A DNA stretch of 64,000 nucleotides from Brucella pseudogrignonensis. GTDB lineage: Bacteria; Pseudomonadota; Alphaproteobacteria; Rhizobiales; Rhizobiaceae. The stretch spans positions 10,089 to 74,088 of the forward strand of contig NZ_NNRM01000018.1 in the NCBI RefSeq assembly GCF_002252525.1, read 5' to 3'. Every line of letters begins with the position of its first letter. Positions within the stretch are counted from its first letter, which is position 1. A model generated the notes under the pieces. That model saw only the letters and a program-made list of their open reading frames with translations. It searched no databases and was not told the origin of the DNA. Shown here piece after piece: positions 2,569 through 18,641 of the stretch. The position numbers and the translations under genes are program-made.

Positions 2569-2951
2569 CAGTCTTACTCCGCGACGGGCGCCGAGAGCCT
2601 TTCTCTCGACCTCCAACCCGTCACGAAAAATCCACTCCTCCTCTCACTCTGATCCCGGCGTCGGCTGGCGGTCGTCGAGACCGGGAGGCAAGGCGCAAGG
2701 GGGGCGCGCGGAGGGGGATCACCCGGTCTGCACAAAGCGGATCGAAGTCATGACGAGGGTGCGAGAGCACATATCCGCGCGGCAGGCCGCGGACCCTCGT
2801 ATCCTGATGTACAAAAGGGAGCGGCCAAGTCCTTGGCGTGACTGCAGGGAATGACTTTCCATTCCAATCACCAACATTAATCTCGGTGCAGTATTCTTTT
2901 TCAGAGCGTCTCAACGTAAAGTCGAAACTACAATATTTGGGGGGAGCGATC
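2569..2951. promoter_or_regulatory. Divergent intergenic region with operator-like repeat
   Basis: This gap separates the leftward ParB-like gene from the rightward block-1 operon, so it must hold promoters for both. An inverted repeat GGAATG-N6-CATTCC lies at 2848-2865. A strong ribosome binding site (GGGGGAGCG) ends just before the ATG at 2952. I see no gene in it; an ORF on the minus strand has no good start. The assignment as an operator is inference. Confidence 0.4.
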
Positions 2952-3179
2952 ATGGATGGTGAAGCAAAGCCGTTGGAAACGCCGGATGCGTTCCTCAAGG
3001 CCTTGGGAGAGAGTCTAAAGGCAAAGGAAGGCGTCGATACCGACCTCGCTGGTATCCTAACCACGCACATTTTGAAGGCCGCTCCAGCGCCAAACGCTGT
3101 CGTTCAAGCGAAGGACGCCATTGTGAAACTCGCCGCTGAGCGGGCGAACCCACCGAAGGTCGAGGTGGCCAATGGCTGA
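2952..3179 (+). CDS. Small unknown protein, first gene of ATPase defence operon
   Basis: 75 aa, soluble, with no recognised family. It is rich in Ala, Lys and Glu and is predicted helical by eye (DAFLKALGESLKAKEG, then KDAIVKLAAERA). ATG at 2952 follows a near-perfect GGGGGAG site; an upstream in-frame Met at 2838 has none. The last eight bases overlap the start of the SMC-like ATPase (ATGGCTGA), so the two are translationally coupled. That tight coupling suggests a small partner subunit of the ATPase, comparable in position to the small middle components of three-component ABC systems. This comparison is inference from layout only. Confidence 0.65.
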   Translation: MDGEAKPLETPDAFLKALGESLKAKEGVDTDLAGILTTHILKAAPAPNAVVQAKDAIVKLAAERANPPKVEVANG

Positions 3180-5661
3180 TCCTTACTTTCTTCAGTCTCT
3201 GAGTCTGACCGGGTTCCGGGCCTACCTTCAGCCGAAGACCTTTGATTTCAGCAAAAAGCGATGCCTGGCGATCTTCGCGCCCAATGGCAGTGGCAAATCC
3301 AGCTTCATCGATGCGTTGGAGTTCATGCTGTCGAAGGAGGGCACGCTGGATCGTTTGGGGCAGCGCACCATCAACAATCAGGCTGGTCCGATCGCTCTGG
3401 CGCACAATCTGGCCGAGGAAGCAAAGATTGTCCCAGCCGTGGCGATTGGTGTCATCTCGGGCAAGGATCTCACGAACGGCAGTCGCGCGGCGGCAGGTGC
3501 AAAGCGCCCGATTCCGGCAGTGGCGACTACCATCAATACCTGTTTTGCAGTGCCGCCGATTATTCGCGGCCACGCGCTCCGCACCTTTGTAGAAATCCAC
3601 ACGCCGGAGCAGCGCTACGCGGATGTCGCCAATTGGTTACAGCTCGGCCCGCTGGTCGATGTGCAGAAGAACCTTCGTTCGCTGCGCACGCAGATTAAGA
3701 CCGCCGCCGAAGACCAGACGGCGCTCCAGCGCGTTGATGCACAGCTTGCTAAGGAAACGACCCAAGCGGTCAAATCCTGGGATGCAGCGGCGGTTCTCTC
3801 CCACGCCAATACGCTTATCATTGGGCCACTTGATCCCGCGCTCGTCCTCACCACCCTGGCAGCACTCGATCCGGCCTATGTCGAATTGGAGACTCGTGCC
3901 AAGGCAGAGGAGAACAAGATCGGACTCGCTGGCTTGCGACAGATTCGCAGCGCGGCGGCTGGCTTGTGGCTGGAGACGAAGGGCGCCGATAGTGATGAGA
4001 TCGTCGTCATTGGCGCAATTTCGACCTTCGATTCTGCCGTGACCATGCTTATGGCGGCCGAAAGCAAGGAAGCTGAGGAGCGCGACAAAGCAGCCGGAAC
4101 AGTATTTCAGGCGCTGTGGAAAGCCGCTGAACCGCTTTTCGCCGAAGGTGCGCCTGCACCAGAAGTTTGCCCGGTCTGCATCACACCGATCGCGGACACA
4201 GTGGCGGGAGGCCCAGAGGTGATCCGAGATCATGTCGCCAAACATCTCGAAGAACTGGCCGACTACGCAGCCGCCAAAAAAACGCGCGACGATGCCAAGA
4301 CGGCGGCGACCAAGGCTCACACCCAACTGGTCGCGTCGCTTCCTGCGCTGATTGGTTTGCTTGGAGATGGTGACGCGGCGCTCAAATCCGATCTGGTTGC
4401 GTATCAGGCCGGCGTCGCCGGATGGCCCAAAAGTGCCGCTGCATCGTCGGCCAGCATTGTCGCTTCGATTTCCAAATTGCTGACCACCCTTGATAAAGCC
4501 ATTTCCGACATCGAGGTGAAACAAGGAGATCACACCTATATCAAGGCCAAAGCGAAGATTGATCGCCTGCTGGAGCTAGATGGCGAACGCGATCTGGCGC
4601 TGCGGACAAATGAGGAGTTGGGGACGCTGTCCGATGCGCTGACGGTGCAGGCGGCAACAATCTCGGCCGAGATCCGAAAGAAGATCCAGGCGCTGCTCGA
4701 TAAGCTCCAGGCCCCGATGAATGACATCTACAAGATGATCCAGGGTGCTGGAGCCAAGCTGATTCGGCTGGAACTGCCGGGAGAAGACGACAGCAACCAG
4801 CAGCGCCTCAATCTGCTAATCGATTTTGCCGCGAACCGGACAGGTGTGCAGCCGGGCGGCTATTTGAGCGACTCCCAGATCCATTCCGTGGCTCTAGCGC
4901 TGCGGATGGCCGCGATCAAGCAGTTCAATGCCAACGCGCCCATCATCGCGCTGGATGACATCGTCACCTCTTACGACGCCGATCATCGCCGCACCATTGC
5001 CGCGCTGATTGCTACCATGTTTGGTGACTGCCAGATTCTGATTACGACCCATGACGAGCGGTTCTTCAACTATCTAAAGGATCAACTCGAAGCGAAGACC
5101 TGGCACTTCACCCGGATCATCGGCCTTGATCCGGCCTATGGACCTCGATTTGCCGACCACAAGGTAAGCGACGAGATGATCGAGGCCCGCTGGGCGGACG
5201 GACAGTCGGCGGCCAATGAGATGCGCCAAGCAGAAGAGGAGTGGCTGCTCGGCCTATGCCGGGATTTTGGAGTCAGCGTTCGTATCCGCCCGCTGGAGAA
5301 GGCCTATTCCTACGAGCGCAGCGAGTTGGCGTCCGCGCTTGGCGGTTTACTCAAGGACGCCAAGTTGGAACCGGCGCTGGTGCCTGGCGTCAACAACCGC
5401 TTTCTCACGAGCTTGGCGACGGGCACGATCGAAAATTTTGGGAGCCATTTTCAGGATGTCCTTTACGGCGACGGCTCTATCGGTGACGAGAAGACGCGCT
5501 GGGAAGAGTTCAAGACGTTCCGCAGCCAGTTCGCTTGCAAAAAATGCAGCCGTACGAAATTCCAGCGGCCCCTCACGTTAAAGAAGCCGGTATGCGCCCA
5601 TGGCGGATGTGAGGCCCAGTTCGAGTTCGCAGCAGCAGGAGCAGGAGCAGGAGCAGCATAA
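3172..5661 (+). CDS. SMC/Rad50-like ABC ATPase with CxxC hook and C-terminal zinc finger
   Basis: 829 aa. Walker A is FAPNGSGKSS near residue 36. An ABC signature-like LSDSQ lies near 565, Walker B IIALDDI near 600, and a switch histidine in ITTHDERFF near 625. Between the two halves of the ATPase lies a helical arm with CPVC near 333, in the place of the Rad50 zinc hook. A C-terminal extension after the ATPase ends with CKKC and two further Cys (about 785-815), a zinc-ribbon arrangement, followed by an Ala/Gly tail. Such ATPases are sensor or DNA-loading parts of many defence systems (Septu, Gabija-like and ABC three-component types are examples of the general class), but the exact family is not recognised. 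It overlaps the small gene before it and the stop/start TAATG of the gene after it, so all three are coupled. Confidence 0.85.
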   Translation: MADPYFLQSLSLTGFRAYLQPKTFDFSKKRCLAIFAPNGSGKSSFIDALEFMLSKEGTLDRLGQRTINNQAGPIALAHNLAEEAKIVPAVAIGVISGKDLTNGSRAAAGAKRPIPAVATTINTCFAVPPIIRGHALRTFVEIHTPEQRYADVANWLQLGPLVDVQKNLRSLRTQIKTAAEDQTALQRVDAQLAKETTQAVKSWDAAAVLSHANTLIIGPLDPALVLTTLAALDPAYVELETRAKAEENKIGLAGLRQIRSAAAGLWLETKGADSDEIVVIGAISTFDSAVTMLMAAESKEAEERDKAAGTVFQALWKAAEPLFAEGAPAPEVCPVCITPIADTVAGGPEVIRDHVAKHLEELADYAAAKKTRDDAKTAATKAHTQLVASLPALIGLLGDGDAALKSDLVAYQAGVAGWPKSAAASSASIVASISKLLTTLDKAISDIEVKQGDHTYIKAKAKIDRLLELDGERDLALRTNEELGTLSDALTVQAATISAEIRKKIQALLDKLQAPMNDIYKMIQGAGAKLIRLELPGEDDSNQQRLNLLIDFAANRTGVQPGGYLSDSQIHSVALALRMAAIKQFNANAPIIALDDIVTSYDADHRRTIAALIATMFGDCQILITTHDERFFNYLKDQLEAKTWHFTRIIGLDPAYGPRFADHKVSDEMIEARWADGQSAANEMRQAEEEWLLGLCRDFGVSVRIRPLEKAYSYERSELASALGGLLKDAKLEPALVPGVNNRFLTSLATGTIENFGSHFQDVLYGDGSIGDEKTRWEEFKTFRSQFACKKCSRTKFQRPLTLKKPVCAHGGCEAQFEFAAAGAGAGAA

Positions 5662-6380
5662 TGGGAGGGCGATCGAAACCCGTTGAGTTGGCAACGCGCA
5701 ACTTTGAAAAGCAGGGCGACGCTATGGCCTTCTTTAAGGCGATGCTAAATCGCTACCGTCCAGGTGAGCGAGTCAACGAAGAAGATGCTTTGGACGTCGC
5801 GGCTCTGCTCGAACGCCATACGGAATATGTCGCGAAAGTCGGCTGCGGTGTCAGCCACTTTCAGGTGATGATGACCGAGCATGGCACGCAGTGTTTTCGC
5901 ATCATCCGCACAGACGGTAGCGGCACGGATTTTTCCTATCCGCACTGTATCACCCAGCGACCGCCCAGCCGTAAGCAGGAGGTTTCGCAGGCATTTCGGC
6001 GGGCTGTGCGCTTCGATTTGTATAAGGCGCGCGATGCCTTCTTCGCAACGCATGGCGACGCTAACGGCAACGCCACTTGCGCGGCGACGGGAGAGCGGAT
6101 CACCCGTGAAGATGCCCATATGGATCATCGGCCACCGATGACCTTCGAGGTGATCGTGACCACATTTCTTTGCAGTCGTGGCCTCTGCCTCAATGACATT
6201 CCACTCACCACCGGGCAGGATGATCAGGTCTCCCCAGAGGTGACGGATCAGATGCTGTCCCAAGCGTTTCGATCTTACCACTCGTCCGTGGCGCGGCTTG
6301 ATCTCGTGCGCAATACCGTCAATTTGGCCCAAGCGAACCGACATCGCCTAAAAGACGGGCGTATTTCTTTGGCTCAATGA
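5661..6380 (+). CDS. DUF3223 (DCL-like) protein with HNH-like segment
   Basis: 239 aa. Residues about 22-95 (AMLNRYRPGERV through GVSHFQVM and the TDFSYPHCI stretch) match the pattern of DUF3223, the domain also found in the plant chloroplast protein DCL. The second half has CAATGERITREDAHMDHRPP, a Cys/His/Asp arrangement resembling an HNH or HNH-derived metal site; a second canonical Cys pair is not obvious, so activity is uncertain. The ATG overlaps the stop of the ATPase gene by one base (TAATG). An ATPase plus an HNH-type partner recalls Septu, but DUF3223 is not part of the known Septu proteins as far as I recall. Likely the effector or an RNA/DNA-binding partner of the ATPase. Function is inferred from context. 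Confidence 0.75.
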   Translation: MGGRSKPVELATRNFEKQGDAMAFFKAMLNRYRPGERVNEEDALDVAALLERHTEYVAKVGCGVSHFQVMMTEHGTQCFRIIRTDGSGTDFSYPHCITQRPPSRKQEVSQAFRRAVRFDLYKARDAFFATHGDANGNATCAATGERITREDAHMDHRPPMTFEVIVTTFLCSRGLCLNDIPLTTGQDDQVSPEVTDQMLSQAFRSYHSSVARLDLVRNTVNLAQANRHRLKDGRISLAQ

Positions 6381-6431
6381 CCTTGCAAGAATTTTTGGAT
6401 AGCTGGCCGTTCAGTCAGCTATGTCGAGCAC

Positions 6432-8747
6432 GTGATAATAGAGGTGTCATTGGAAATCGAAAATGAAGAAGCCAAGCGAGCATCTACAGGGGTAGACAGC
6501 TCAACTACGCCATCAGCGCAAGGACTATTAGTCGATTACGCTCTTCACACTTTAGGCTGGAAGTCCTTTCAAGACCTGTGTGTGGCTATCGCCCAGGAAG
6601 TGCTCAAACGGCCGGTAGAGACATTTCTGCCGTCAAAGGATGGTGGGCGAGATGGTGCATTTCTCGGTCGTTGGTCCAATGAAAGTTCAGCCGGTCGCTC
6701 GACAATCCAATGTAAATTTACGAGCAAGGCCGATGCACCACTAAATCTGAGCGCCGTGAAGAGCGAACTGACCAAGGCTGGAAAGCTCGCAGCCAGAGGG
6801 TTGGCTGAAGACTACATCCTTCTCACAAACCATGGCGTGTCGGGTGCGCAGGCGGGCATAATCGCTGCGGCGTTCGAAGCGGTTGGTGTGAAGAACTGTG
6901 TCATTCTTGGGCGTGACTGGATCGCACAGCAAATTCGGGAATCATCCCGGCTACGGGTGATGGTGCCGAGGGTTTACGGATTGGGAGATCTTTCCCAGAT
7001 TCTTGACGAGCGGGCCTATGCGCAATCTCGCGCCGTCTTGAGCGCGCTTGGGGACGATCTGGCATGTTTCGTTGTCACCGATGCACATCGTCAGAGCGTA
7101 GACGCGCTACTCGATCATAATTTTGTCTTGCTGCTTGGGGATCCAGCTTCCGGAAAGTCGACCATCGCAGCAAGCCTCGCTTTAGGGGCGCTTGATCACT
7201 GGCATGCGCCGACTATCCGCGTAACCAGTCCTGAAGATATCATGCGACATTGGAATCCCGACGATCCCAAGCAGTTCTTCTGGATAGATGACGCCTTTGG
7301 CGCCACTCAGTACCAACGACATATTGCCGATGCTTGGAATCGACAAATGCCGCTGATGGCAGCGGCGTTGCGCAAAGGCGCACGTTTTCTACTTACATCC
7401 CGCACCTATATCTGGCGATCAGCCCATCGCGATCTCAAGACCGGCGCGTTTCCGCTATTCGACAAATCGCAGGTGGTCATCAACGTCCAAGGCTTGGCGA
7501 CCGCCGAAAAGGCGCAAATCCTGTATAATCACATCAAGCGTGGCGATCAGCCGGCTTCGTTCAAGATGGCCATCAAGCCACACTTGTCGACGCTTGCCGA
7601 AGATGCATCTTTTCTCCCCGAGACGGCGCGTCGTCTCGGTTCAGCATTCTTTACGGAGAAAGTAGCGCCCGACGAGGAAGGCTTGCTCGATTTTGCACGA
7701 CGGCCGGTCGACTTCCTTAAAGACGTGCTACGCAATCTGGACCGGAGCGAAGCGGCGGCAGTTGCGCTGGTTTTTATGCACGGGGGGCAACTCGCTTCGC
7801 CGATCGAAAACGACGATCGTATAGCCCTAATCTCGGAACTCCTTGGCGTCACAGCAGCCGAGATCCGACTCTCTCTGGATTCGCTCCGCGGGAGTCTTGC
7901 CCTGCTCGTCGATACGGCCGAAGGTCCAAAATGGACGTTCAAGCATCCCACGATCGGCGATGCATATGCTGCACTCGTCGCCAATTCACCCGAACTGACT
8001 GAAATCTACCTGCGCGGCGCAAAGTTCGAACGGCTGCTCGAAGAGGTCGTTTGTGGTGGAGTTGAATTACGGGGTGCGAGCGTGCGCGTCGGCCCTTCGC
8101 TATACCCTGCGCTTCTGAATCGTTTGCTCGTTCATCCCGTTGATTATCGCATACGCTATTTTCTTGGGCAGCGCTGCGACGAAGCATTCTTGCGGCTGGT
8201 GGTGGATCAGGTGCCGAATATTCTTGATCTTCGTCCTGGCGCGTTCATGGCGTACTCCTCCGAAAACAGACTATTGGCGAAGCTGCATCAGGCGAAACTT
8301 TTGCCCGAGGAAAAGCGCCATAAGCTCGTAGAACACATTATTGATACGACCCTCACGGTTCCCGATGGTGGTATTTTTCGTGACGAATCTTTGCGCTCTC
8401 TCATGACTGACGCCGAGTTCGAAAATCTTGCGGCACAAGTAAGGGGGGACGTTCTTGATCGTATCGACGCCCATGTGTCTGATTGGAAGTCGAATTGTGA
8501 GAGTAGCGATCCGGATAGTCACTTCGATGAGTTGTCGAGTTTCTTAAGTGGTTTCGAGGATACGCTTCCGATTGATGACCCTTATCGCGCTAAAATCGAG
8601 AGTGGACGAATAGCTATAGGAAAGGCGATTGAGGAACTGAATGAGACCCGTGACCCTGATGTCGAAGATCGAGTGGAAACGCCAGTCGGCCGAGCCGTCA
8701 CCGCACGCTCAAACATTCAGTCGATCTTCGACGACGTAGATTGTTAA
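6432..8747 (+). CDS. Mrr-type nuclease fused to STAND NTPase, probable Avs-like defence protein
   Basis: About 771 aa. The N-terminus (residues about 35-150) is an Mrr-like restriction endonuclease domain: LGWKSFQDLC helix, GGRDG supplying the Asp, and TIQCKF supplying the QxK. A P-loop NTPase follows, with LLLGDPASGKST near 235 and the Walker-B-like FFWIDDAFG near 285, typical of the nSTAND3 group. The remaining roughly 400 residues are helical, as expected of a sensor region. STAND ATPases joined to nucleases form the Avs class of phage-protein sensors. The GTG at 6432 has a poor ribosome site; GTG at 6444 or TTG at 6450 are alternatives. The 51-base gap after the DUF3223 gene fits the same operon, but this gene could act alone. 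The 70-bp repeat begins 25 bases after its stop. Confidence 0.8.
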   Translation: MIIEVSLEIENEEAKRASTGVDSSTTPSAQGLLVDYALHTLGWKSFQDLCVAIAQEVLKRPVETFLPSKDGGRDGAFLGRWSNESSAGRSTIQCKFTSKADAPLNLSAVKSELTKAGKLAARGLAEDYILLTNHGVSGAQAGIIAAAFEAVGVKNCVILGRDWIAQQIRESSRLRVMVPRVYGLGDLSQILDERAYAQSRAVLSALGDDLACFVVTDAHRQSVDALLDHNFVLLLGDPASGKSTIAASLALGALDHWHAPTIRVTSPEDIMRHWNPDDPKQFFWIDDAFGATQYQRHIADAWNRQMPLMAAALRKGARFLLTSRTYIWRSAHRDLKTGAFPLFDKSQVVINVQGLATAEKAQILYNHIKRGDQPASFKMAIKPHLSTLAEDASFLPETARRLGSAFFTEKVAPDEEGLLDFARRPVDFLKDVLRNLDRSEAAAVALVFMHGGQLASPIENDDRIALISELLGVTAAEIRLSLDSLRGSLALLVDTAEGPKWTFKHPTIGDAYAALVANSPELTEIYLRGAKFERLLEEVVCGGVELRGASVRVGPSLYPALLNRLLVHPVDYRIRYFLGQRCDEAFLRLVVDQVPNILDLRPGAFMAYSSENRLLAKLHQAKLLPEEKRHKLVEHIIDTTLTVPDGGIFRDESLRSLMTDAEFENLAAQVRGDVLDRIDAHVSDWKSNCESSDPDSHFDELSSFLSGFEDTLPIDDPYRAKIESGRIAIGKAIEELNETRDPDVEDRVETPVGRAVTARSNIQSIFDDVDC

Positions 8748-8771
8748 GGCTAGGCGGGTCACGGCCTGGCG

Positions 8772-9084: not shown

Positions 9085-9567
9085 ATGACAGTTCTCTACA
9101 CACCAGGCCAGTTAAGGAGCGCTGTCTCGATCGCGCCGGAGACATATCGGCACTGGAAAAAGGCAATCGCCTCGCTTGATCGCGGTCGCGGACATAGCCC
9201 CTGTTTCAGCTCAGGCGACATGGTCGCCGCGTCGGTCATTCGAGCGCTTGCTATCGACCTTTCGGTTCGTGTTGGTGCACTGGCTCCAATGGCGGAAACA
9301 CTTTTTGAGCTGTGCAACAGATCACCGTGGCCGGTTCTCGAACGTACTAAGGTTGTCTTAAATTTGCAGGGGGCGGAGGTGCGCCTCGCTGAAGAACTGG
9401 CGGAAGCGCACAGCGATCAACCGCTGATAATCATTCCTCTGAGAGCGATTGTTGCGCGCTTGCGCGAGCAATTGCTTGCAGCAACCGATCATGTGGAGCA
9501 ACGATCTTTGCTCTTTCCACCCATCCCGATCACGAGCGCTGCAACGGCGCAACGAGGTCAGCCATGA
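9085..9567 (+). CDS. MerR-like HTH protein leading methylase operon
   Basis: 160 aa. The N-terminal third (YTPGQLRSA, SIAPETYRHWKK, then HSPCFSSGDMVAASVI) has the layout of a MerR-type winged helix: recognition of a start helix, a YRHW helix, and a wing leading to a helix beginning SSGDM. The rest is helical and not recognised. It overlaps the methylase gene by four bases (ATGA), so the two are co-translated. It may autoregulate the operon or guide the methylase/PIN pair. No metal-binding cysteines typical of metal-sensing MerR proteins are visible, which argues against a metal sensor. The specific role is inference. Confidence 0.65.
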   Translation: MTVLYTPGQLRSAVSIAPETYRHWKKAIASLDRGRGHSPCFSSGDMVAASVIRALAIDLSVRVGALAPMAETLFELCNRSPWPVLERTKVVLNLQGAEVRLAEELAEAHSDQPLIIIPLRAIVARLREQLLAATDHVEQRSLLFPPIPITSAATAQRGQP

Positions 9568-12050
9568 GCGCGCTCGATCAGATCGCCTGGGCTGCACACC
9601 GCGCGGGGTATCGTGCCGAAGCCGTGGTGCGGGACTATGCGTTTGCTGATGTGCTTGCAGAAGGCAACGATACGCGTACCGTGCCACTGGTTGCGTTCAC
9701 ACGAACCCCCCCGTCTTATCGTTCGGCTGCCTTTGGCGTAGTTGAAAGTGACGGACGTTCCACCATCGAGCTCGTCCAGTCGCACCGTGCGCTCGGTGCA
9801 CCGTTATTGTTTGTCATCGACCGCGATGATGTCACGGTCTGGCAGGTTCGCAGCGAAGGACCGCCGCGAGCGATCGAGAAGGTCAAGGTTGGCCAGCTCA
9901 CCGACCTATTCGAACGCAACCAGGCGGACTGGCATCCTGACGCGATCCATCGCGCAAAGGCGGTGGGGAGCCCCGCAGCCGGCCATCAGCTTGACTTCGT
10001 CGACCTAGGGCTGCTGCCGGCGATTGAAGGGGAAATCCATCTCAAGCTTGACCGCCTGCTTATCGAGACGCTCGATCTGGCCCGCAAGGCACCTGGTGGG
10101 GGTCGGCTCGATGTGCGAACCATGTTCAGGGTGGTGTTCCGCCTGTTGGCCGCTAAGGTTCTAGAGGATCGCCGCCACCCGTTCTCGGCAGAGTGGAATG
10201 CCGACAATCTGTCTTCGGTTCTGACGGCTATCGAGCGTTATTATAGCTTGTCACAAATCGACGGACGGACGAATCCCATACTGACGCGTATGTTTGGTGC
10301 GGCATGGGCACATCTTCGCGCTGGAATTAACTTTTCCAACATCTCCTCGGACGATCTTGCATTCGTGTATGAGAATACGCTGGTGACGCCTGAGGCCCGC
10401 AAGCTATTCGGGACGCACAGCACGCCGCGCCAAGTGGCTGAATATATTGTTCAGCGACTAGAGTTGCACCGCTATAATCCGATCGATCTCCAGATCTACG
10501 AGCCATGCGCTGGTGCAGGCGTCTTTCTAGTATCGGCGCTCAGACACTTGCGCGACTTGCTTCCCGTGGGATGGTCGGATCAAGAGCGTCACAACTTTCT
10601 GATCGAGCACATCGCGGGTGATGAAATCGATCCCTTCGCCTGCGAGGTGGCCACGCTTTCTTTGATCCTTGCTGACTATCCCAACCACAATGGCTGGCAC
10701 ATACGTGAAGCAGATCTATTCGTCGACGGTGTGTTGGCAAAGGCGCTGGTCGGCAAGAATGTGATCGTCTGCAACCCTCCTTTTGAAGCCTTCACCCAAG
10801 AAGAAAAGGAGCGTTATCCGGAAGCGAGCCGGAAACCGACGAAGGCGGTCGCAGTGCTCAGCGCGGTGATTGATGCGCAGCCACTCGCCATCGGGTTCGT
10901 ATTGCCGCGGTCCTTCATACTAGAGAAGCAGTTCTCGGAACAGCGTCGCCGCATCGAAGATCTTTACGGCTTCGTCGAGATTGTTGAACTGCCGGATCGG
11001 ATTTTTGGCGCATCGAGCGTGGAGTCCGCCGCATTGATCGCCCGCGATCTGCGAGCCGAAGGATCGACGCGTGTTACAATCCGGTCGACAGAAGTTGCCG
11101 ACCAAGATCGGGCGGCTTTCCTGAAAACTGGCCGCACGACGGTTCAGCGCGAGACCACTCGGGAAGTCGTCCGACCGGAGGGGGAGCTTTGGATTCCCCC
11201 CCTGCACGATTTGTGGATCTATCTTGCAGAAGCTCCGCAGCTCGGAACGATTTTCAAACCAAGATGGGGGCTGCGCTGGAATTATGAACAGGATCTGGCT
11301 GCAAGCGATGTTGAGAAGAAAGGCTTTCGCAGAGGGTATCTGAATGCCCGACGCTTCCAACAATATGTTGGCGTTCGCGCTACTTGGCTCGATTTTAATC
11401 TAGAGAATCTGCGTGAGGGCTATGATCAGGATTGGTCGAAGCCGAAGCTCATCATGAATGCGACACGGCTTAGCCGAGGTCCCTGGCGGGTAGGTGCGGT
11501 CGCCGATCTGGAATCGCACCTCTACTCGCAGCAGTTCTTCGGGCTGTGGCCGCTCACCGACATGACGCCAGAAAGTCTGCTTGCTTTTAGCGCGGTTATG
11601 AATGGTCCGATCGTCAATGCCTATCTTGCTGTTCATTCACCAAGGGATCGCTTCCGTTCAAACGTGGTCGCACAGGCTCCGATGCCGAGCTACATTCCGA
11701 AGGAATTACCCGAGCTTGTCCGCGACTATCTGAAGGTCCTAACCAAGGGTCGTCTCTTTGCAGAAGACGGCGCGGATCTTGCCCATCTGCTCGCGTCAAT
11801 CGATGCCGCTGTACTTCGTGGGTACGATCTGCCGCTGCGGCAGGAGCGCCAGTTGCTGAACTTTTTCCGGGGTGCCGAACGCCCGGTTCCTCATCAATGG
11901 GCGCATTGGGACGACTTGTTTCCGGTGCCGGGACTGACGCTTGCCGAGCGAATCTCCGGCCGGTTCCGTGCGAGTGGCGACTGGGTCAGAAAGGTCTTTC
12001 GTGCACTGCCCGATGAAGAGATCACGCTGCTACGCGACTATGTGGCTTGA
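9564..12050 (+). CDS. N6-adenine DNA methyltransferase (large, gamma-type)
   Basis: 828 aa. SAM-binding motif I is IYEPCAGAGVFLV near residue 312. The catalytic motif IV is VIVCNPPFEAF near 398, the classic N-P-P-F adenine methylase motif. The order motif I then motif IV, with a long C-terminal region, is that of type I/IIG N6-adenine methylases (N6_Mtase). The first 150 residues form an alpha/beta domain (GVVESDGRSTIEL, LLFVIDRDDVTVWQV) that could be a decayed or divergent nuclease or a specificity domain; I cannot identify PD-(D/E)xK residues with confidence. The roughly 300-residue C-terminus may be target recognition. It lies between an HTH gene (4-base overlap) and a PIN nuclease gene with which its stop overlaps or abuts. 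Confidence 0.85.
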   Translation: MSALDQIAWAAHRAGYRAEAVVRDYAFADVLAEGNDTRTVPLVAFTRTPPSYRSAAFGVVESDGRSTIELVQSHRALGAPLLFVIDRDDVTVWQVRSEGPPRAIEKVKVGQLTDLFERNQADWHPDAIHRAKAVGSPAAGHQLDFVDLGLLPAIEGEIHLKLDRLLIETLDLARKAPGGGRLDVRTMFRVVFRLLAAKVLEDRRHPFSAEWNADNLSSVLTAIERYYSLSQIDGRTNPILTRMFGAAWAHLRAGINFSNISSDDLAFVYENTLVTPEARKLFGTHSTPRQVAEYIVQRLELHRYNPIDLQIYEPCAGAGVFLVSALRHLRDLLPVGWSDQERHNFLIEHIAGDEIDPFACEVATLSLILADYPNHNGWHIREADLFVDGVLAKALVGKNVIVCNPPFEAFTQEEKERYPEASRKPTKAVAVLSAVIDAQPLAIGFVLPRSFILEKQFSEQRRRIEDLYGFVEIVELPDRIFGASSVESAALIARDLRAEGSTRVTIRSTEVADQDRAAFLKTGRTTVQRETTREVVRPEGELWIPPLHDLWIYLAEAPQLGTIFKPRWGLRWNYEQDLAASDVEKKGFRRGYLNARRFQQYVGVRATWLDFNLENLREGYDQDWSKPKLIMNATRLSRGPWRVGAVADLESHLYSQQFFGLWPLTDMTPESLLAFSAVMNGPIVNAYLAVHSPRDRFRSNVVAQAPMPSYIPKELPELVRDYLKVLTKGRLFAEDGADLAHLLASIDAAVLRGYDLPLRQERQLLNFFRGAERPVPHQWAHWDDLFPVPGLTLAERISGRFRASGDWVRKVFRALPDEEITLLRDYVA

Positions 12051-12055
12051 CCAGG

Positions 12056-12559
12056 ATGGACGCCTATCTCCTCGATACGACCGTCTTGTCGATTTATCTT
12101 GATCCGACGCATCCGCTCCATGCTGAGAAGAGCCAATCTTTGAACGCGTTGCCAGCCGAAGCGCCACGCTTCGTTTCTACGGTCGCGCTTGCCGAACTCG
12201 CGTTCGGGACGCGCCTCGCGGCAGTTATCGGCAAGGGAAATCTTCCCGCACTTGACGCCATGCTTGCAGAGGCGCGGACCTACGCCGTCCTAGATCTCAC
12301 CCACCATACTGCGGCTGCCTACGCCGATCTGAAAGCTCGGATCGCGCAAAAGTATCTCGCCAAGGTTCTACGAAAGGATCGGCCTAAATATATTGAAGAA
12401 TGGGTAGACAAGGCCACAGGCAAAAAACTCGGCGTTGACGAAAATGATCTGTGGATGTGCGCTCAGGCTAAGGAGCGTGAACTCGTTTTCGTGACCGCCG
12501 ACGCGCGCATGAAGCGCATTCCCGATGCGGATGACGAAGTTAGAATGCTGATCGTCTAA
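12056..12559 (+). CDS. PIN-domain nuclease, VapC-like, in methylase operon
   Basis: 167 aa. PIN-domain acidic residues are present in order: Asp in YLLDTTVLS near residue 6, Glu in ALAELAFG near 46, Asp in DENDLWM near 134, and Asp in VTADARM near 152. These are the Mg2+-binding positions of VapC-type ribonucleases. It is longer than typical VapC (about 130 aa) owing to a Lys-rich insert near residues 95-125. ATG at 12056 follows the methylase stop by five bases; TTG at 12047 would overlap the methylase stop. There is no VapB-like antitoxin beside it. The partner genes are an HTH protein and a methylase, so it is more likely the effector arm of that operon than a free toxin-antitoxin module. 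Confidence 0.8.
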   Translation: MDAYLLDTTVLSIYLDPTHPLHAEKSQSLNALPAEAPRFVSTVALAELAFGTRLAAVIGKGNLPALDAMLAEARTYAVLDLTHHTAAAYADLKARIAQKYLAKVLRKDRPKYIEEWVDKATGKKLGVDENDLWMCAQAKERELVFVTADARMKRIPDADDEVRMLIV

Positions 12560-12746
12560 ACGACAACCATAATGAGGCCATGGGGCCTGAGCCCGTTATG
12601 GTCCCTCGCATGTGATCTGCTGTTGATTGGTCGAATGCTGTAGAAGAATGCACTAAAATCAAAATGAAAAAATATGTCATCCGCCGTCTATCGATTCGGC
12701 AGCGAGACGCGTGAAGAGCACCAATGCGAGGAACAAATAGAAGAAT
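12560..12746. promoter_or_regulatory. Intergenic region between the two methylase operons
   Basis: An imperfect inverted repeat, ACCATAA ... TTATGGT with GGCC arms inside, lies at about 12565-12601 and could be a weak terminator or an operator; no T-run follows it. The last 100 bases are A/T-rich compared with the flanking genes and probably hold the promoter for the following methylase/helicase/GIY-YIG operon. Confidence 0.35.
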
Positions 12747-15437
12747 ATGCTGACCCCGGGGGAAATATACTCCAATCTTGACGACCTCGCGGGGAAACCT
12801 CCAGCGGGAGGCGAGTTTGGCTTGGCGTTGATGGAGGCGGTAGGCGCGCCGCGTGCTACGATCACGAAACTGCGCGATACCGCTAAAGACGGAGCATTCT
12901 TGTGGGCACGAATGCTCCGCTTCGAATCCACTGCATTGGGAGGAGCGGACGCGGCGCTGGACCGGATGCGCTCAGAAGCTGAGGCTTTACCCAAGGGACG
13001 GCGTCCACGCATACTGCTCGCCTATGATGGTGAGCGGATCGCTGCCTGTGATACGAGCCCGAAGTTCGACGAGGAGCCGCTGCGTGTCGGCCTCGACATG
13101 CTCTCTCTGGAAGGCGACGTTTTCTTTCCACTTGGCGGTCATGAGAGATACGTTCCGAAGAAGGAGCGCATGGCCGACGTACGGGCAACCCGATTCATCT
13201 CGCGCTTTCATGACGCGGTGCGCGACGCTAATCCGAGCTGGACGATGGAGGTGGATCGTCACGCGCTCAATATCTTCATGGCGCGCATACTATTTTGCCT
13301 GTTCTCGGATGATGTCGGCATCTTCGATAAGGACGTGTTTGAAACCGCTGTGCGGCAGTCGAACGTGGATGGCAGTGATCTTGCCGCATTTTTGGACAGC
13401 GCTTTCAAGTACATGGACACACCACCAGAGAAGCGATCGTCAGAGACGCGTCCTTGGTCGAAGCTGAAGTATGTAAACGGCTCCTTGTTCGAAGAAGACG
13501 TGCCCATGCCAGCGCTGGATGGGCGTTGCCGCAAGCTGCTGCTCGACTGTGCAGGGCTGAATTGGAAGCTCATCAATCCTGACATCTTTGGCTCGATGCT
13601 TCAGGCCGTCGTTGACGTTGAGAAGCGCGGCGAACTGGGGATGCACTACACATCGCCAGCCAACATCATGAAGGTGCTGGAGCCCATCCTTCTCGATTCA
13701 CTGCAAGCGGAGCTGGAACGGGCTGGAGCGAACAAGGGGCGGCTGCGCGACTTCCTTGAGCGACTTGGCCGCATCCGCGTGTTCGACCCGGCTTGCGGCT
13801 CTGGCAACTTTCTGATCCTCGCCTACAAGGAACTGCGGGCGCTGGAAACGGAAGCGTTGCGCCGTCTCGCCACGCCGCGCCTGTCGGGCATTGCGCTTGA
13901 ACAGTTCTTCGGAATCGAGATCGACGATTTCGCCTGTCAGGCAGCACGGCTGGGCCTGTGGATCGCGAAGTATCAATGCGACCAGCAGCTTGAACTGGAC
14001 CTCGGCCAGCGCACCGACTTCCTGCCGCTCCAGAAGGCCGGCGTGATCGTGACAGGCAACGCGGCCGAGAGAGACTGGCTGGAGGCTTGCCCCCCGGTCA
14101 CGGGCGCGGAGACGGTCGTGGTCGGGAATCCGCAGTTCCGCGGTTCATCTTACTGGTCGCCCGAGCAGAAGGCGGATATGGCCCGCGTCTTCAAGGGGCG
14201 CGTCAAGAACTGGGGCAATCTCGACTACGTGACGCTCTGGTTCGCGAAGGCGCGCGACTATTCGCTGGCGACCGGCGCGCCCTTCGCCTTCGTGGCTACG
14301 AACTCCATCGTGCAGGGCGTGCAGGTGCCCGAGCTTTGGCCCCACCTGCTGGAAAACCTCGAAATTCGCTTTGCGCATCGTTCGTTCAAGTGGTCGAACC
14401 TGGCAGCCCACAATGCGGGCGTGACTTGCGTGATTATCGGCATGGGGCCGCCCAGCAGCGCGCCCAAGCGCCTGTTCGATGGCGATACCGTGCGCGACGT
14501 AGAGGTGATCGGTCCCTATCTCGCGCCTGGCACCACGGCGATCGTGGAAAAGGCGAGCAGGCCGCTGGCACCCGATCTCGAACCGATGGTGTTCGGCAAC
14601 AAGCCAACCGACGGCGGCAACCTAATTCTCGATCGCAACGAGCGAGATGCGCTGCTGGAGGTGCACCCGGATGCGGCGCGATTCGTGCGGCGGCTCTACG
14701 GCTCTCAGGAGTTGATGAAGGGAATCGAGCGATATTGCCTGTGGGTGGGGGACGACGAGGTCGAGGAGGCAAAGTCCATCCCAGAACTGGCACGACGATT
14801 CGAGGCCGTGGCACGGGATCGGTCCAAGGAAAAGGCGTCGGACATTTCGAAGGCGTTTGCGGATCGACCTCATCGCTTCCTGCAAAGGGCGGGCGCTGCG
14901 ACATCACACACGATCATGGTACCACGACCTTCAAGTGAGGACCGCTTTTATCTGCCCGTCGATGTAGTGGATCAAACTAACATTACGTCCAGTGAAGCAT
15001 TCGCGATCTTCGACGGCGATATCTGGCAGGCTGCGGTTCTGTCCTCACGGCTTCATCGGTTATGGCTTGAACTCGTTGGTGGAAAACTTGAAACGCGAGT
15101 GCGCTATTCCAATACTCTTGTATGGAACACCTTCCCCCTTCCATACCTGTCGGATCGTCGTAAGGCGGACCTCGAGGAGCACTGGTGGGCAATCGACGAG
15201 GCGCGCAAGGAAGCGGGGTTCGGGCGCGCTCTCGGCGAGCTTTACGCCCCTGCCAAGATGCCTCACGCCCTGCGCCGCGCTCATGAAGAGCTGGACGAGA
15301 CGATGGAGACGATCTTCGGCTCGCGTCGCTACCGCTCGGACGCCGATCGGGTCGAGCACATGCTACAACTCTATGCACGCATGGTGGTGGGAAAAGCAAA
15401 GCCATCCAAGATCAAGGAAGAAGAGGTGAGCGCATGA
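12747..15437 (+). CDS. Class I SAM-dependent adenine DNA methyltransferase, MmeI/DrmM-like
   Basis: 896 aa. Motif I is VFDPACGSGNFLI near residue 348. FFGIEIDDFACQAARLGLW follows as motif II/III. Motif IV appears as VVVGNPQFRG near 453, with Gln where N6-adenine methylases normally have the second Pro of NPPF. The preceding HYTSPANIMKVLEP is typical of MmeI-type and DISARM-type methylases. The N-terminal 250 residues are helical (helical scaffold/N-domain). The C-terminus (FGRALGELYAP, RRAHEELDETMETIFG) matches the end of this family. No nuclease domain is visible, unlike true MmeI, so cleavage would have to come from the neighbouring genes. It overlaps the helicase gene by four bases. Confidence 0.88.
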   Translation: MLTPGEIYSNLDDLAGKPPAGGEFGLALMEAVGAPRATITKLRDTAKDGAFLWARMLRFESTALGGADAALDRMRSEAEALPKGRRPRILLAYDGERIAACDTSPKFDEEPLRVGLDMLSLEGDVFFPLGGHERYVPKKERMADVRATRFISRFHDAVRDANPSWTMEVDRHALNIFMARILFCLFSDDVGIFDKDVFETAVRQSNVDGSDLAAFLDSAFKYMDTPPEKRSSETRPWSKLKYVNGSLFEEDVPMPALDGRCRKLLLDCAGLNWKLINPDIFGSMLQAVVDVEKRGELGMHYTSPANIMKVLEPILLDSLQAELERAGANKGRLRDFLERLGRIRVFDPACGSGNFLILAYKELRALETEALRRLATPRLSGIALEQFFGIEIDDFACQAARLGLWIAKYQCDQQLELDLGQRTDFLPLQKAGVIVTGNAAERDWLEACPPVTGAETVVVGNPQFRGSSYWSPEQKADMARVFKGRVKNWGNLDYVTLWFAKARDYSLATGAPFAFVATNSIVQGVQVPELWPHLLENLEIRFAHRSFKWSNLAAHNAGVTCVIIGMGPPSSAPKRLFDGDTVRDVEVIGPYLAPGTTAIVEKASRPLAPDLEPMVFGNKPTDGGNLILDRNERDALLEVHPDAARFVRRLYGSQELMKGIERYCLWVGDDEVEEAKSIPELARRFEAVARDRSKEKASDISKAFADRPHRFLQRAGAATSHTIMVPRPSSEDRFYLPVDVVDQTNITSSEAFAIFDGDIWQAAVLSSRLHRLWLELVGGKLETRVRYSNTLVWNTFPLPYLSDRRKADLEEHWWAIDEARKEAGFGRALGELYAPAKMPHALRRAHEELDETMETIFGSRRYRSDADRVEHMLQLYARMVVGKAKPSKIKEEEVSA

Positions 15438-17602
15438 GCGAGACGAAGAACAAGGCGGGCGAGAACGGTCTCGGCTCCATCACGCTCACCTATGACGGAA
15501 CGGGCGCGTCCAAGACGACAGACAGTCTTGGCATGCGCGCCATGCAGGCTCGGGTGTGGGATAAGCGGGACGCGCAGCACCTGCTGGTGAAGTCGCCACC
15601 TGCCTCGGGCAAGTCGCGTGCGGCCATGTTCGTGGGACTAGAGAAGCTGCGCACCAAAGCCGTCGATCGCGTGGTGATCGCGGTGCCCGAGCGCTCCATT
15701 GGCGCCTCGTTCCGGGACACGGGCCTCGCGGCGGGCGGCTTCCACTCGGACTGGCAGCTTGACCTCGACCTCTGCACCGTCGGCTCGGAGACCGGCCGCA
15801 AGGTGGACGAATTGATCGGGTTCCTTCGCGGAGAAGGTGATGGGCGAACGACACTGTGCACCCACTCCACCCTGCGCGCCGCCCATGCCAAGACGGATGA
15901 TGTGACCTTATTCGACCGTGCGCTTATCTGCGTGGACGAACTGCACCACGCTTCGTCAGACGAGAACAGTAGGCTGGGCAACCTGCTGCGCGGGTTGATC
16001 GACCGGGCGGGCGAAGTGGGGCACGACGCCGCGCACATCCTCGCCATGACGGGTTCGTACTTCCGGGGCGACGGCACTGCGGTGCTGCATCCACAGGACG
16101 AGGCCCGTTTCGAGAAGGTAATCTACACCTATTATGAGCAGCTCAACGGCTACGAGTACCTAAAGACGCTGCGTATCAACTTCCGTTTCTACCAAGGCAA
16201 GTATCTCGACGCGATCGGCGGAGCCCTTGACCCGCACATGAAGACCATCGTGCATATCCCTCATGTCGGCTCGGCCGAGGGCAGCGGAGTCAACAAGATG
16301 TTCGCGGTAGATGCGATCGTGGATGCGATTGGCGACCGCTTGGGCAAAAATCCTAAGACCAGCACCGATCCCACGACCGGATTTGTGCATCTCACGGCAG
16401 GCGGTCGTACGCTCAAGATCGCGAACCTCGTGGACGACAGCGCCGACCGCGAGAAGGTGCTGGCGAGCCTCCGCGCGGTAAAAGACCGCGACGATGTCGA
16501 CATCATCATTGCACTTGGCATGGCCAAAGAGGGCTTCGACTGGGTGTGGTGCGAGCACGTTCTCACGGTTGGCTACCGAGGCTCGTTGACCGAGGTCGTG
16601 CAGATCATTGGCCGAGCGACGCGGGATGCACCTGGCAAAACGGAGGCGCAGTTCACCAATCTTGTCTCTGCGCCCTTCGCCAATGACGAGGCGGTGAGCC
16701 GCGCCGTCAACGATATGCTCAAGGCCATCTCGGTGTCGCTCCTGATGGAGCAGGTGATGGCGCCCGTCTTCAAGTTCCGCACGCACAAAGGCGCGGACCA
16801 ATTCGACGGCTCGCCCGGCGACAAGTCTAATCCGGGACCGGTGACCAACGCTGGCGAGATCGAAATTATCGGCATGCCGGAGATCGACGAGAAGGCTGTC
16901 GAGGCGATCGAAAACGACTTCAACGACCTGTTCGCGGATGTACAGAACGACCCGCGCACGCTAACGGTCATGATCAACCCCGACGACCACCACACCGACG
17001 TGATTTACGACCTCGTGGTCACAGACGTGATCAAGCGGCGCTACCCTGGCTTCTCGGCAGAGCAGGTCCAGGACGCGGTAGGCCTGTTTGGTGTTCGCGC
17101 CGGGCTGGGCCGTGAGGTCGCCAAGGACCCGAGCATCATTCAGACGCTAGGAATGTCCGAAGGGGAGCAGCCGGCCTTCACAGGACCAGACGAAGAGGAA
17201 GGCGATGGCGATCGCGACACGACCGGTCCAAACGCCGGCGACCGCTTCGTACAGCAGACAAAGCGGTTCATCAACGTGAGGGAGCTACAGGTCGATCTGC
17301 TCGGCGGTCGCCGCGACTTCGATGATGCCTACGAGCTATTGTCAAAGGAACTCTCCGAGGAGTTGCTCGCACGCCTTCACGGCGAGGTTCGCGCCCTCAC
17401 CGTGAGCATGACGCAAGATGAGGCCGAAAAGCTGTATTCTCGCATCAAGGAATTCATCCACCGTGAGAGCCGCGAGCCCAATCTGAATTCCCCAAATGGC
17501 CGCGAAGTCAGGCTAGCGGAAGCTTTGGCGTTTCTGCGCAAGATTTCGCGAGAGAAACGTGCTGCCATGGCGGGCGCAGATGAGGGGCAGGTCGATGCGT
17601 GA
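15434..17602 (+). CDS. DEAD/DEAH-like SF2 helicase of methylase operon
   Basis: 722 aa. Walker A is VKSPPASGKSRA near residue 55. Walker B/motif II is ICVDELHHAS near 157, a DELH variant of DEAH. Motif III-like AMTGSYF lies near 200. Motif VI EVVQIIGRATRD near 388 contains the QxxGRxxR arginine finger. The two RecA-like halves span about 40-450. The C-terminal 270 residues are acidic (DEEEGDGDRD near 580) and not recognised. Helicases of this kind translocate DNA in restriction and DISARM-like systems. Four-base overlap with the methylase before it and eight-base overlap with the nuclease gene after it show a single coupled operon. Confidence 0.88.
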   Translation: MSETKNKAGENGLGSITLTYDGTGASKTTDSLGMRAMQARVWDKRDAQHLLVKSPPASGKSRAAMFVGLEKLRTKAVDRVVIAVPERSIGASFRDTGLAAGGFHSDWQLDLDLCTVGSETGRKVDELIGFLRGEGDGRTTLCTHSTLRAAHAKTDDVTLFDRALICVDELHHASSDENSRLGNLLRGLIDRAGEVGHDAAHILAMTGSYFRGDGTAVLHPQDEARFEKVIYTYYEQLNGYEYLKTLRINFRFYQGKYLDAIGGALDPHMKTIVHIPHVGSAEGSGVNKMFAVDAIVDAIGDRLGKNPKTSTDPTTGFVHLTAGGRTLKIANLVDDSADREKVLASLRAVKDRDDVDIIIALGMAKEGFDWVWCEHVLTVGYRGSLTEVVQIIGRATRDAPGKTEAQFTNLVSAPFANDEAVSRAVNDMLKAISVSLLMEQVMAPVFKFRTHKGADQFDGSPGDKSNPGPVTNAGEIEIIGMPEIDEKAVEAIENDFNDLFADVQNDPRTLTVMINPDDHHTDVIYDLVVTDVIKRRYPGFSAEQVQDAVGLFGVRAGLGREVAKDPSIIQTLGMSEGEQPAFTGPDEEEGDGDRDTTGPNAGDRFVQQTKRFINVRELQVDLLGGRRDFDDAYELLSKELSEELLARLHGEVRALTVSMTQDEAEKLYSRIKEFIHRESREPNLNSPNGREVRLAEALAFLRKISREKRAAMAGADEGQVDA

Positions 17603-18641
17603 AACGATCGACTACTTAAACGACGAACTTCTCCTCACACCTGACGAAAAGCCGAAGGCAGCACGAACGCCCGTCCTTGATCGCGCGGTCGAGGTGATCG
17701 AGCGCATCAATGCCTTCATGGACGAGACTGGTGCCGAGCCGGTCTCTGAGCCAGGGCGCAGTGTTCGAGAGCGCATGCTCGCCAATGAATTGGCTGGACT
17801 GCGGGCATCGAAGGCGGACCTCGATGGGCTCGCACCGTACGATACGCGCAACCTCGTGTTCGGCGGGGCGAGCGTCGCCGATCCTCTCGATGATCCTTTG
17901 CTTTCCGATGGTCTCGACATCTTCGAGGTGCGGGACGAACTGAGGCCAATGGCACGACCCGACTTTGTCGCCGACCGTCGCCCTTGTCCGGATTTCGAGC
18001 GTTTCGAGCCGCTGTTCGAAAACATTCGAAAGGCCGTTGAGCAGGGCGCGCGCAAGCCCCAGCCTTTTCGGCAAGAGCGCGTCGAACTGGGCGAGTTCTT
18101 TGTCCTCAAGGGTCAGCTCGTCCATGTTGCTGATCTTCGCGACGAGCACCGGCGCAATGGCAAACCTGACGCTCGCCTGCGCGTCATCTTCGACAACGGC
18201 ACGGAATCGAACCTGCTGATGTCATCGCTCGTGCGGCGGCTTTACGAGGATAAGGATGCCCGCCGAATCGGCACTACGGACGCCGGCCCCCTGTTTAGCG
18301 GCGCTCGGACCGGCTTCGTATACGTCCTGCGCTCCCTATCGGAGAAACCTGAAGTCCAAGGATTGCTTAAGGTAGGCACCACATCGGGAGCAGTCGAGGA
18401 CCGCATTGCGCACGCTGAAACGCAGTCGACATTCTTGTTCGCACCAGTAGACATTCTAGTTACCTTCGAACTGGTGGGGCACTCGGCAAAGGAAGCTGAA
18501 CAGCTTATCCACCGAGCGCTTCGATCGTATCACGTCGCCCTGAGGGTTACGGGACCTGACGGACGATCCTTCAGTGCAACCGAATGGTTCAAAGTGACGC
18601 CAGAGCTAGTGGAAAAGGCCATAGAAGAAGCGCTGGGTTAA
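17595..18641 (+). CDS. GIY-YIG (T5orf172/Mug113-like) nuclease of methylase operon
   Basis: 348 aa. Residues about 238-340 form a GIY-YIG-type domain. GFVYVLRSL and LLKVGTT take the place of GIY and YIG, with an Arg in VEDRI and a Glu in KEAEQLIHRAL as the expected catalytic Arg and metal ligand, ending near ATEWF. The N-terminal 230 residues are helical and unknown, and may bind the helicase or DNA. The ATG at 17595 sits inside ATGCGTGA at the helicase stop, with GGGGCAGG as the ribosome site; the earlier in-frame ATG at 17559 has none. This is the only obvious nuclease of the three-gene operon. The repeat copy B begins 55 bases downstream. Confidence 0.82.
   Translation: MRETIDYLNDELLLTPDEKPKAARTPVLDRAVEVIERINAFMDETGAEPVSEPGRSVRERMLANELAGLRASKADLDGLAPYDTRNLVFGGASVADPLDDPLLSDGLDIFEVRDELRPMARPDFVADRRPCPDFERFEPLFENIRKAVEQGARKPQPFRQERVELGEFFVLKGQLVHVADLRDEHRRNGKPDARLRVIFDNGTESNLLMSSLVRRLYEDKDARRIGTTDAGPLFSGARTGFVYVLRSLSEKPEVQGLLKVGTTSGAVEDRIAHAETQSTFLFAPVDILVTFELVGHSAKEAEQLIHRALRSYHVALRVTGPDGRSFSATEWFKVTPELVEKAIEEALG

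Follow-up and report, generated by a model that had tools for sequence, protein, structure and literature searches.

In Lamassu systems, a zinc-hook ATPase is accompanied by a small partner, and the effectors vary; according to the available part of one account, a change of the Walker B glutamate to glutamine is general among them, not universal, some have no LmuC, and ABC-3C is counted within the group (PMC10586767). In 3.8% of Hachiman systems, a DUF3223 protein is present as HamC, and the accessible text of the source calls its defence role unknown (PMC8565338). Defence cores with no other relationship have also been described as repeatedly acquiring effector genes (PMC12799240, available part). 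Here, we report an operon of four genes in a 64,000-nucleotide (nt) stretch of Brucella pseudogrignonensis DNA (NZ_NNRM01000018.1, positions 10,089 to 74,088; "the window," whose positions are used as coordinates below). The genes encode a small protein, an SMC/Rad50-like ABC ATPase, a DUF3223 protein (called DCL), and an Mrr-nSTAND3 protein (called Mrr-STAND, or STAND). We propose, with moderate confidence, that this is a modular defence operon in which a constant surveillance pair is combined with interchangeable effectors. Its putative anti-phage role is read from the company that the genes keep.

The conserved unit is the small gene plus the ATPase gene. We compared 43 loci (numbered L; genomes are numbered G), comprising the window, L024, five plasmid loci, and 36 loci from a scan of an 84,980-species collection with patterns for two N-terminal peptides, a number that is not a full census because the scan used peptide patterns. 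In 43/43 loci, the gene immediately preceding the ATPase gene is a complete or partial homologue of the small gene. The two genes overlap by 8 nt in 36 of the 40 loci where this could be measured and by 5 nt in 3; a 10-nt gap separates them in 1. Judged by title, most of the 36 loci belong to Alphaproteobacteria, whereas those of Ralstonia and Spongiibacter do not; L064 (labelled Mycobacterium) and L069 (labelled Bacillus) appear to be wrongly assigned contigs. Among 385 genomes of the class, the ATPase was found at high identity in two, the window's own and G295 (64%), and at 24 to 34% identity in five more distant cases. Fifteen plasmid records held an ATPase match, which in five spanned 80% or more of the query. 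Pattern scans of viral contigs confirmed no relative of the ATPase or the STAND, and tblastn found no ATPase in phage records.

What follows the pair differs between loci. Partners were scored with 14 query proteins in 38 of the 43 loci, and classes were assigned manually; the other five are L038 (whose contig ends 315 nt past the ATPase gene, with no DCL there), L060 (ATPase frameshift), L067 (broken ATPase), and the remnants L069 and L071. DCL is the partner in 14/38 loci, whole in the window, L010, L039, L045, L046, L048, L063, L065, and L070 and damaged in 5 of the 14 (L011, L012, L013, L050, and L062, the last at its start). Mrr-STAND stands directly behind the ATPase in 7/38 (L024, L052, L056 to L059, and L066) and an HD-CE/HATPase protein in 6/38 (L037, L040, L042, cut by the contig end, L049, L061, and L044, a fragment); DCL follows HD-CE whole in L061 and frameshifted in L037. 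PDC-M54A fills the slot once (L068, 1/38), and SbcD/SbcC genes follow after 159 nt once (L014, 1/38). No recognised partner was found in 9/38 loci (L036, L041, L043, L047, L051, L053 to L055, and L064), and, for seven of the nine, one downstream open reading frame (ORF) per locus was compared with Pfam and gave no match; the genes that come next in L036 and L041 are encoded on the opposite strand.

The effector slot is thus interchangeable, and DCL is the partner found most often without being a constant one. Chance can hardly account for the repeated adjacency, because few genomes of the class carry the partner genes: PF11523 was found in 5/385 and a P0004-like STAND (E ≤ 1e-40) in 4/385 genomes, the window's own included. 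Identities of partner and ATPase rise together for DCL (Pearson 0.83; 11 loci, 55 pairs) and for HD-CE (Pearson 0.84; 5 loci, 10 pairs, the L044 fragment left out). The four-gene unit of the original prediction breaks up into a constant part, small gene plus ATPase (43/43), and an ATPase-DCL pairing that recurs in part (14/38). A fixed four-gene system was rejected because partners differ between loci; the full set is intact, among the loci seen, only in the window.

The window operon consists of four ORFs, all on the + strand, that fill 2952-8747 (Table 1). The ORFs, overlaps, and spacing agree with the original prediction of three genes overlapping at their ends and a fourth after 51 bases: the small and ATPase genes share 8 nt, the ATPase stop and the DCL start share one base (TAATG), and 51 nt separate DCL from GTG 6432. 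The STAND probably starts at GTG 6444 (a gap of 63 nt), since this start is conserved in the relative L110. Terminator-like patterns numbered 8 in the scan against 6.3 in shuffles, so the scan is weak. Ratios of nonsynonymous to synonymous substitution rates were 0.04 to 0.15 in the nine window comparisons that yielded a value (two DCL comparisons were saturated), and the operon genes are under purifying selection.

Table 1. Coordinates of the operon features and of the genes to the right of the operon, as window positions (aa, amino acids)
Feature	Position	Strand	Basis or remark
Small protein, 75 aa, no family assigned	2952..3179	+	Translation; constant first gene
SMC/Rad50-like ABC ATPase, 829 aa, zinc hook and C-terminal zinc-finger-like cysteines	3172..5661	+	SMC_N; constant second gene
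CPVC zinc-hook codons (residues 333-336)	4168..4179	+	Motif position; C333, P334, and C336 invariant in 18 sequences
C-terminal cysteine cluster codons, C789-C813	5536..5610	+	Motif position and alignment
DCL protein, 239 aa, DUF3223 (residues 26-97) and C-terminal HNH-like motif	5661..6380	+	PF11523; variable slot
Mrr-nSTAND3 protein, 771 aa from GTG 6432 (probable start GTG 6444)	6432..8747	+	nSTAND3; fourth gene
Terminator-like stem-loop after fourth gene	8749..8770	+	Pattern scan, consensus match only
N6 methylase	9564-12050		Second defence cluster (9085-18641), right of operon
PIN/VapC-like	12047-12559		Second defence cluster
MmeI-type enzyme	12747-15437		Second defence cluster
Helicase	15434-17602		Second defence cluster
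GIY-YIG protein	17559-18641		Second defence cluster

The ATPase matches Pfam SMC_N (E 8e-20) and AAA_23, and sequence comparison with the PDB brings up mainly SMC and Rad50 proteins. In PADLOC, LmuB is its best model (E 5.7e-24, residues 162 to 638), with mad3 almost level (E 1.4e-23). Its motifs are the CPVC hook (residues 333 to 336), LSDSQ (565 to 569), IALDD (592 to 596), and cysteines 789, 792, 808, and 813; the hook cysteines, signature, LDD, THDERFF, and four C-terminal cysteines are identical in 18/18 relatives, which bears out the SMC-like ATPase with CPVC hook and C-terminal cysteines that had been predicted. The small protein matched nothing in Pfam (E up to 1), PADLOC (0.1), or PHROG (0.001), and its two NCBIfam matches fall far below the cut-off. 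Remote homologues were not obtained: the best hmmsearch hit (E 0.2) is an unrelated ORF, and an L027 ORF adjoining the ATPase reaches E 0.92. Short ORFs also abut the start of distant ATPase relatives in three loci (L027:3210-3395, L028:7714-7947, and L032:7557-7739), with no detectable similarity to the small protein.

In the fourth protein, nSTAND3 (E 8e-41) stands as predicted; the Mrr part stays under the cut-off (Mrr_cat E 0.045; 20.6 versus a cut-off of 21 bits in a relative), though DGGRD (residues 70 to 74) and QCK (93 to 95) form a PD-(D/E)XK-type motif set, and GDPASGKS and FWIDD are also present. PADLOC model PDC-S73 covers the Mrr-nSTAND3 part (E 1e-34) and matches only residues 35 to 379; we take it, from its name, to be a single-gene candidate.

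Mrr-STAND genes were probably added to the pair on two or more occasions, because identities are mismatched and the STAND tree separates the groups. The window STAND is 36 to 38% identical to those of five of the seven ATPase-linked loci (L057 and L058 left out), whose ATPases are 63 to 64% identical to the window's; among themselves, these five show ATPase identities of 0.81 to 0.99 with STAND identities of 0.85 to 0.98. In the tree (15 rows; L073, which is broken, L069, L110, and L111 left out), the window protein falls in a five-member group with plasmid STANDs (100/100), outside the linked clade. A single origin of the window and linked STANDs was rejected on these grounds, with long branches that make the finer placement unsure.

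Traces of the window arrangement survive elsewhere. In L110 (G101), a STAND 90% identical to the window's (synonymous divergence, 0.71) is preceded by DCL residues 207 to 239 only (tblastn); homology to the window starts at 6297 (blastn), inside the DCL end, and continues through the spacer, with 84% nucleotide identity over 2,452 bases. L069 holds window 2665-3365 plus an inverted 7655-8741, that is, rearranged pieces of both operon ends. The DCL-STAND linkage is old, since L110 shares the junction and L069 holds the rearranged pieces; these scars place the window combination, at one time, in three lineages. Seven of the eight plasmid STAND loci contain no ATPase relative (tblastn, 1e-3). The Rhizobium rhizogenes plasmid locus L072 carries a distant one (9162-11630; 25% over 375 residues), convergent to Mrr-STAND. 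Neighbours of plasmid STANDs include AbiE genes (L074), a CoiA-like gene (L072), another AAA ATPase (L078), and others, as well as unannotated genes (L075 and L076).

DCL matches DUF3223 (PF11523, E 3e-23), PADLOC HamC2 (E 8.9e-55), and phrog_28887 (E 3e-33). The DUF3223 domain (window 5736-5951) also matches PDB 2k0m and the largest subunits of plant RNA polymerases IV and V (profile E 9e-15 and 3e-12). Of the predicted DUF3223-HNH protein, the DUF3223 half is confirmed, and the HNH half is a motif that no Pfam or PDB profile picks up. Residues C140, H153, D155, H156, and H207 are invariant in the C-terminal half, and N221 nearly so (21 sequences). An hhalign alignment of DCL with HNH is in register and weak (P 0.068; 2/60 column shuffles scored higher). 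The HamC of a Ti plasmid (L016:6016-6753) has NLNH in place of H-x-D-H; some DCLs may be inactive, given the Asn at two motif positions there.

Relatives of DCL with 64 to 67% identity to it lie on 12 phage-like IMG/VR contigs (L080 to L091), where a terminase small-subunit homologue follows after 0.93 to 1.28 kb in 12/12 (47 residues only, at the contig end, in L081). PHROG models confirm terminase small subunits in L083, L086, L087, and L089 and large subunits in L080 and L086; the DCLs of these contigs belong to phrog_28887, a family annotated as of unknown function. Tailed phages are known to carry HNH genes close to their terminase genes, which fits, without proving, a nuclease activity of DCL. 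More distant viral DCLs lie directly before a primase in 5/9 cases, four of these being near-copies, and Sinorhizobium phage AP-16-3, a single phage isolate record, holds a 32% relative. In a tree of ten operon DCLs (L062 left out), 7 of the 12 near phage DCLs, and one HamC, the operon proteins form one clade (99/99) joined to the seven phage DCLs (100/98), far from the HamC. DCL has probably passed between bacteria and tailed phages in which it lies close to the terminase genes. To judge by the tree, transfer from phage to defence would be the likelier direction; it is not settled, since the phage protein L083 is the closest sister of the operon clade with support of only 85/91. Another DCL context was seen on an Erythrobacteraceae plasmid (L015:3773-6780), behind a different AAA ATPase; kinship of that enzyme with the window ATPase was rejected (E 0.005 over 49 residues).

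On the left side of the operon, the other strand carries a ParB-like gene (442-2616), and a strawberry-notch helicase lies further left, outside the window (L034:3868-8202). Related ParB genes beside the system in L039, L062, and L063 hint at a shared insertion site. To the right, several genes of the second defence cluster overlap. The operon would thus lie in a defence island on an apparent mobile element, given the ParB-like gene and helicase on its left and the methylase-PIN-MmeI-helicase-GIY-YIG cluster on its right. In various loci, AbiEii, SIR2, and HerA genes and MmeI-type enzymes are found nearby. In L045, L046, L048, L062, L063, and L010, SbcD lies downstream, with SbcC where the contig reaches, and AbiEii or SIR2-HerA genes lie between in some; the SbcD/SbcC-flanked region suggests a defence hot spot.

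In the mechanism that we propose, the small protein and ATPase would form a surveillance complex, the most likely target of which is a DNA structure present in phage or plasmid DNA as it enters or replicates. On engagement, ATP-driven closure of the ATPase heads would recruit or unlock a separate effector encoded next door. Candidate effectors are the HNH-motif DCL, an Mrr-type nuclease-like domain fused to a STAND nucleoside triphosphatase, HD-CE/HATPase, and PDC-M54A. In the window, DCL would fill the slot, and the Mrr-STAND gene downstream of it would have been gained either as an additional effector or as a defence gene in its own right. Unlocking of the partner is modelled on Rad50, on Lamassu (PMC10586767, available part), and on effector acquisition by other cores (PMC12799240, available part).

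Several points weigh against this proposal. The sensing role, too, is drawn by analogy with Rad50 and with Lamassu as the accessible text presents it (PMC10586767). Nine of 38 loci have no recognised partner, and three of these (L036, L041, and L043) form one clade (100/98), so the pair may work without a neighbouring effector. No fold or profile confirms HNH in DCL. DCL does not always travel with the ATPase, since the L061 DCL (0.73 to the window and 0.74 to 0.77 to seven loci) is more diverged than its ATPase (0.81 to 0.89 to the window and those loci). G101, whose STAND is 90% identical to the window's, is not among the seven class genomes with an ATPase match.

As the original prediction held, no named system fits: PADLOC and NCBIfam models call no single one, and a literature search (most subscription papers and preprints outside its coverage) found no description of this gene set in titles or abstract openings. 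A diverged branch of Lamassu seems doubtful to us. The ATPase finds its best PADLOC model in LmuB, and the zinc hook, small partner, and varied effectors recall Lamassu as described in the available part of the source (PMC10586767), but complete PADLOC lists for the small, DCL, and STAND proteins hold no LmuA or LmuC match. Gene order also differs (small-ATPase-effector, with the small gene first, versus LmuA-LmuC-LmuB), as do the Walker B motif (IALDD, with LDD invariant in 18 and no E-to-Q change), the length of the ATPase (829 versus about 650 aa, with an added C-terminal cysteine cluster), and the effectors (DCL, HD-CE, and nSTAND3). In the operon proteins, Pfam gave no match to the middle-component or C-terminal effector domains of ABC-3C, models that we take Pfam to hold. 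One operon part already has a name, since DCL belongs to the Hachiman type II accessory family HamC, but ten window proteins scanned gave no match to HamA (DUF1837) or the HamB helicase, and DCL is 34% identical to one Hachiman-type DCL (L016) versus 64 to 67% to those of phage contigs. The predicted resemblance to Septu extends to an ABC ATPase with an HNH-like partner and no further, as the PtuA match is weak (E 4.5e-6), DCL matches HamC2 models alone and not PtuB, and the operon has an extra small gene. A defining partner of Lamassu, Hachiman, and Septu was looked for in each case and not found, so the operon is filed under none of them. Nuclease-protease pairs (Hachiman, AVAST, Lamassu, and DRT) likewise involve unrelated cores that repeatedly acquire effectors, with different gene families (PMC12799240, available part). 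The operon is probably a variant of an SMC-like sensor with modular effectors, Lamassu-like in logic.

Other explanations concern the makeup of the operon. That two systems stand side by side, small-ATPase-DCL as one unit and Mrr-STAND as an independent single-gene defence behind it, has in our judgement a little less than an even chance. It is favoured by STAND relatives apart from the operon (7/8 plasmid loci without an ATPase relative, and in L072 a distant one on the opposite strand), the match to the single-gene candidate PDC-S73, the whole STAND behind a mere DCL end in L110, and the position of the window STAND outside the linked clade; yet Mrr-STAND stands directly behind the ATPase in seven other loci, the DCL-STAND junction shared with L110 and the pieces of both ends in L069 point to an old linkage, and, in a weak scan, the only terminator-like signal at a + strand gene end follows the STAND. 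A DNA repair or mobile-element maintenance module, with nearby SbcCD, ParB, and conjugation genes reflecting the carrier, appears improbable. SbcD/SbcC downstream in several loci, the ParB-like gene beside the window, L039, L062, and L063, several plasmid locations, and nine loci without a recognised effector agree with such a module. Swapped nuclease-like and STAND partners and clustering with restriction-modification, AbiEii, and SIR2-HerA genes are, however, typical of defence islands, and a high-identity ATPase in 2/385 class genomes, the window's own included, fits housekeeping poorly. A narrower reading defines the family by its small protein and zinc-hook ATPase and has DCL taken from a phage packaging region. 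DCL would then be a putative nuclease that the ATPase directs at what its phage relative ordinarily acts on, namely DNA ends or packaging intermediates, and the same sensor could instead work with HD-CE, Mrr-STAND, or PDC-M54A as effector. We hold this reading unlikely, the more so because the nesting of operon DCLs in the phage clade rests on the 85/91 branch.

If the modular defence operon is real, it would be a second, differently built version of the sensor and swappable-effector principle of Lamassu, with effectors (DCL, HD-CE/HATPase, and nSTAND3) that the available part of the source does not name for Lamassu (PMC10586767). HamC/DUF3223, whose defence role is called unknown in the accessible text of PMC8565338, would gain a testable origin as a phage gene near the terminase. 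With DUF3223 also present in the largest subunits of plant RNA polymerases IV and V, the biochemistry of DCL would be of interest to that field as well.

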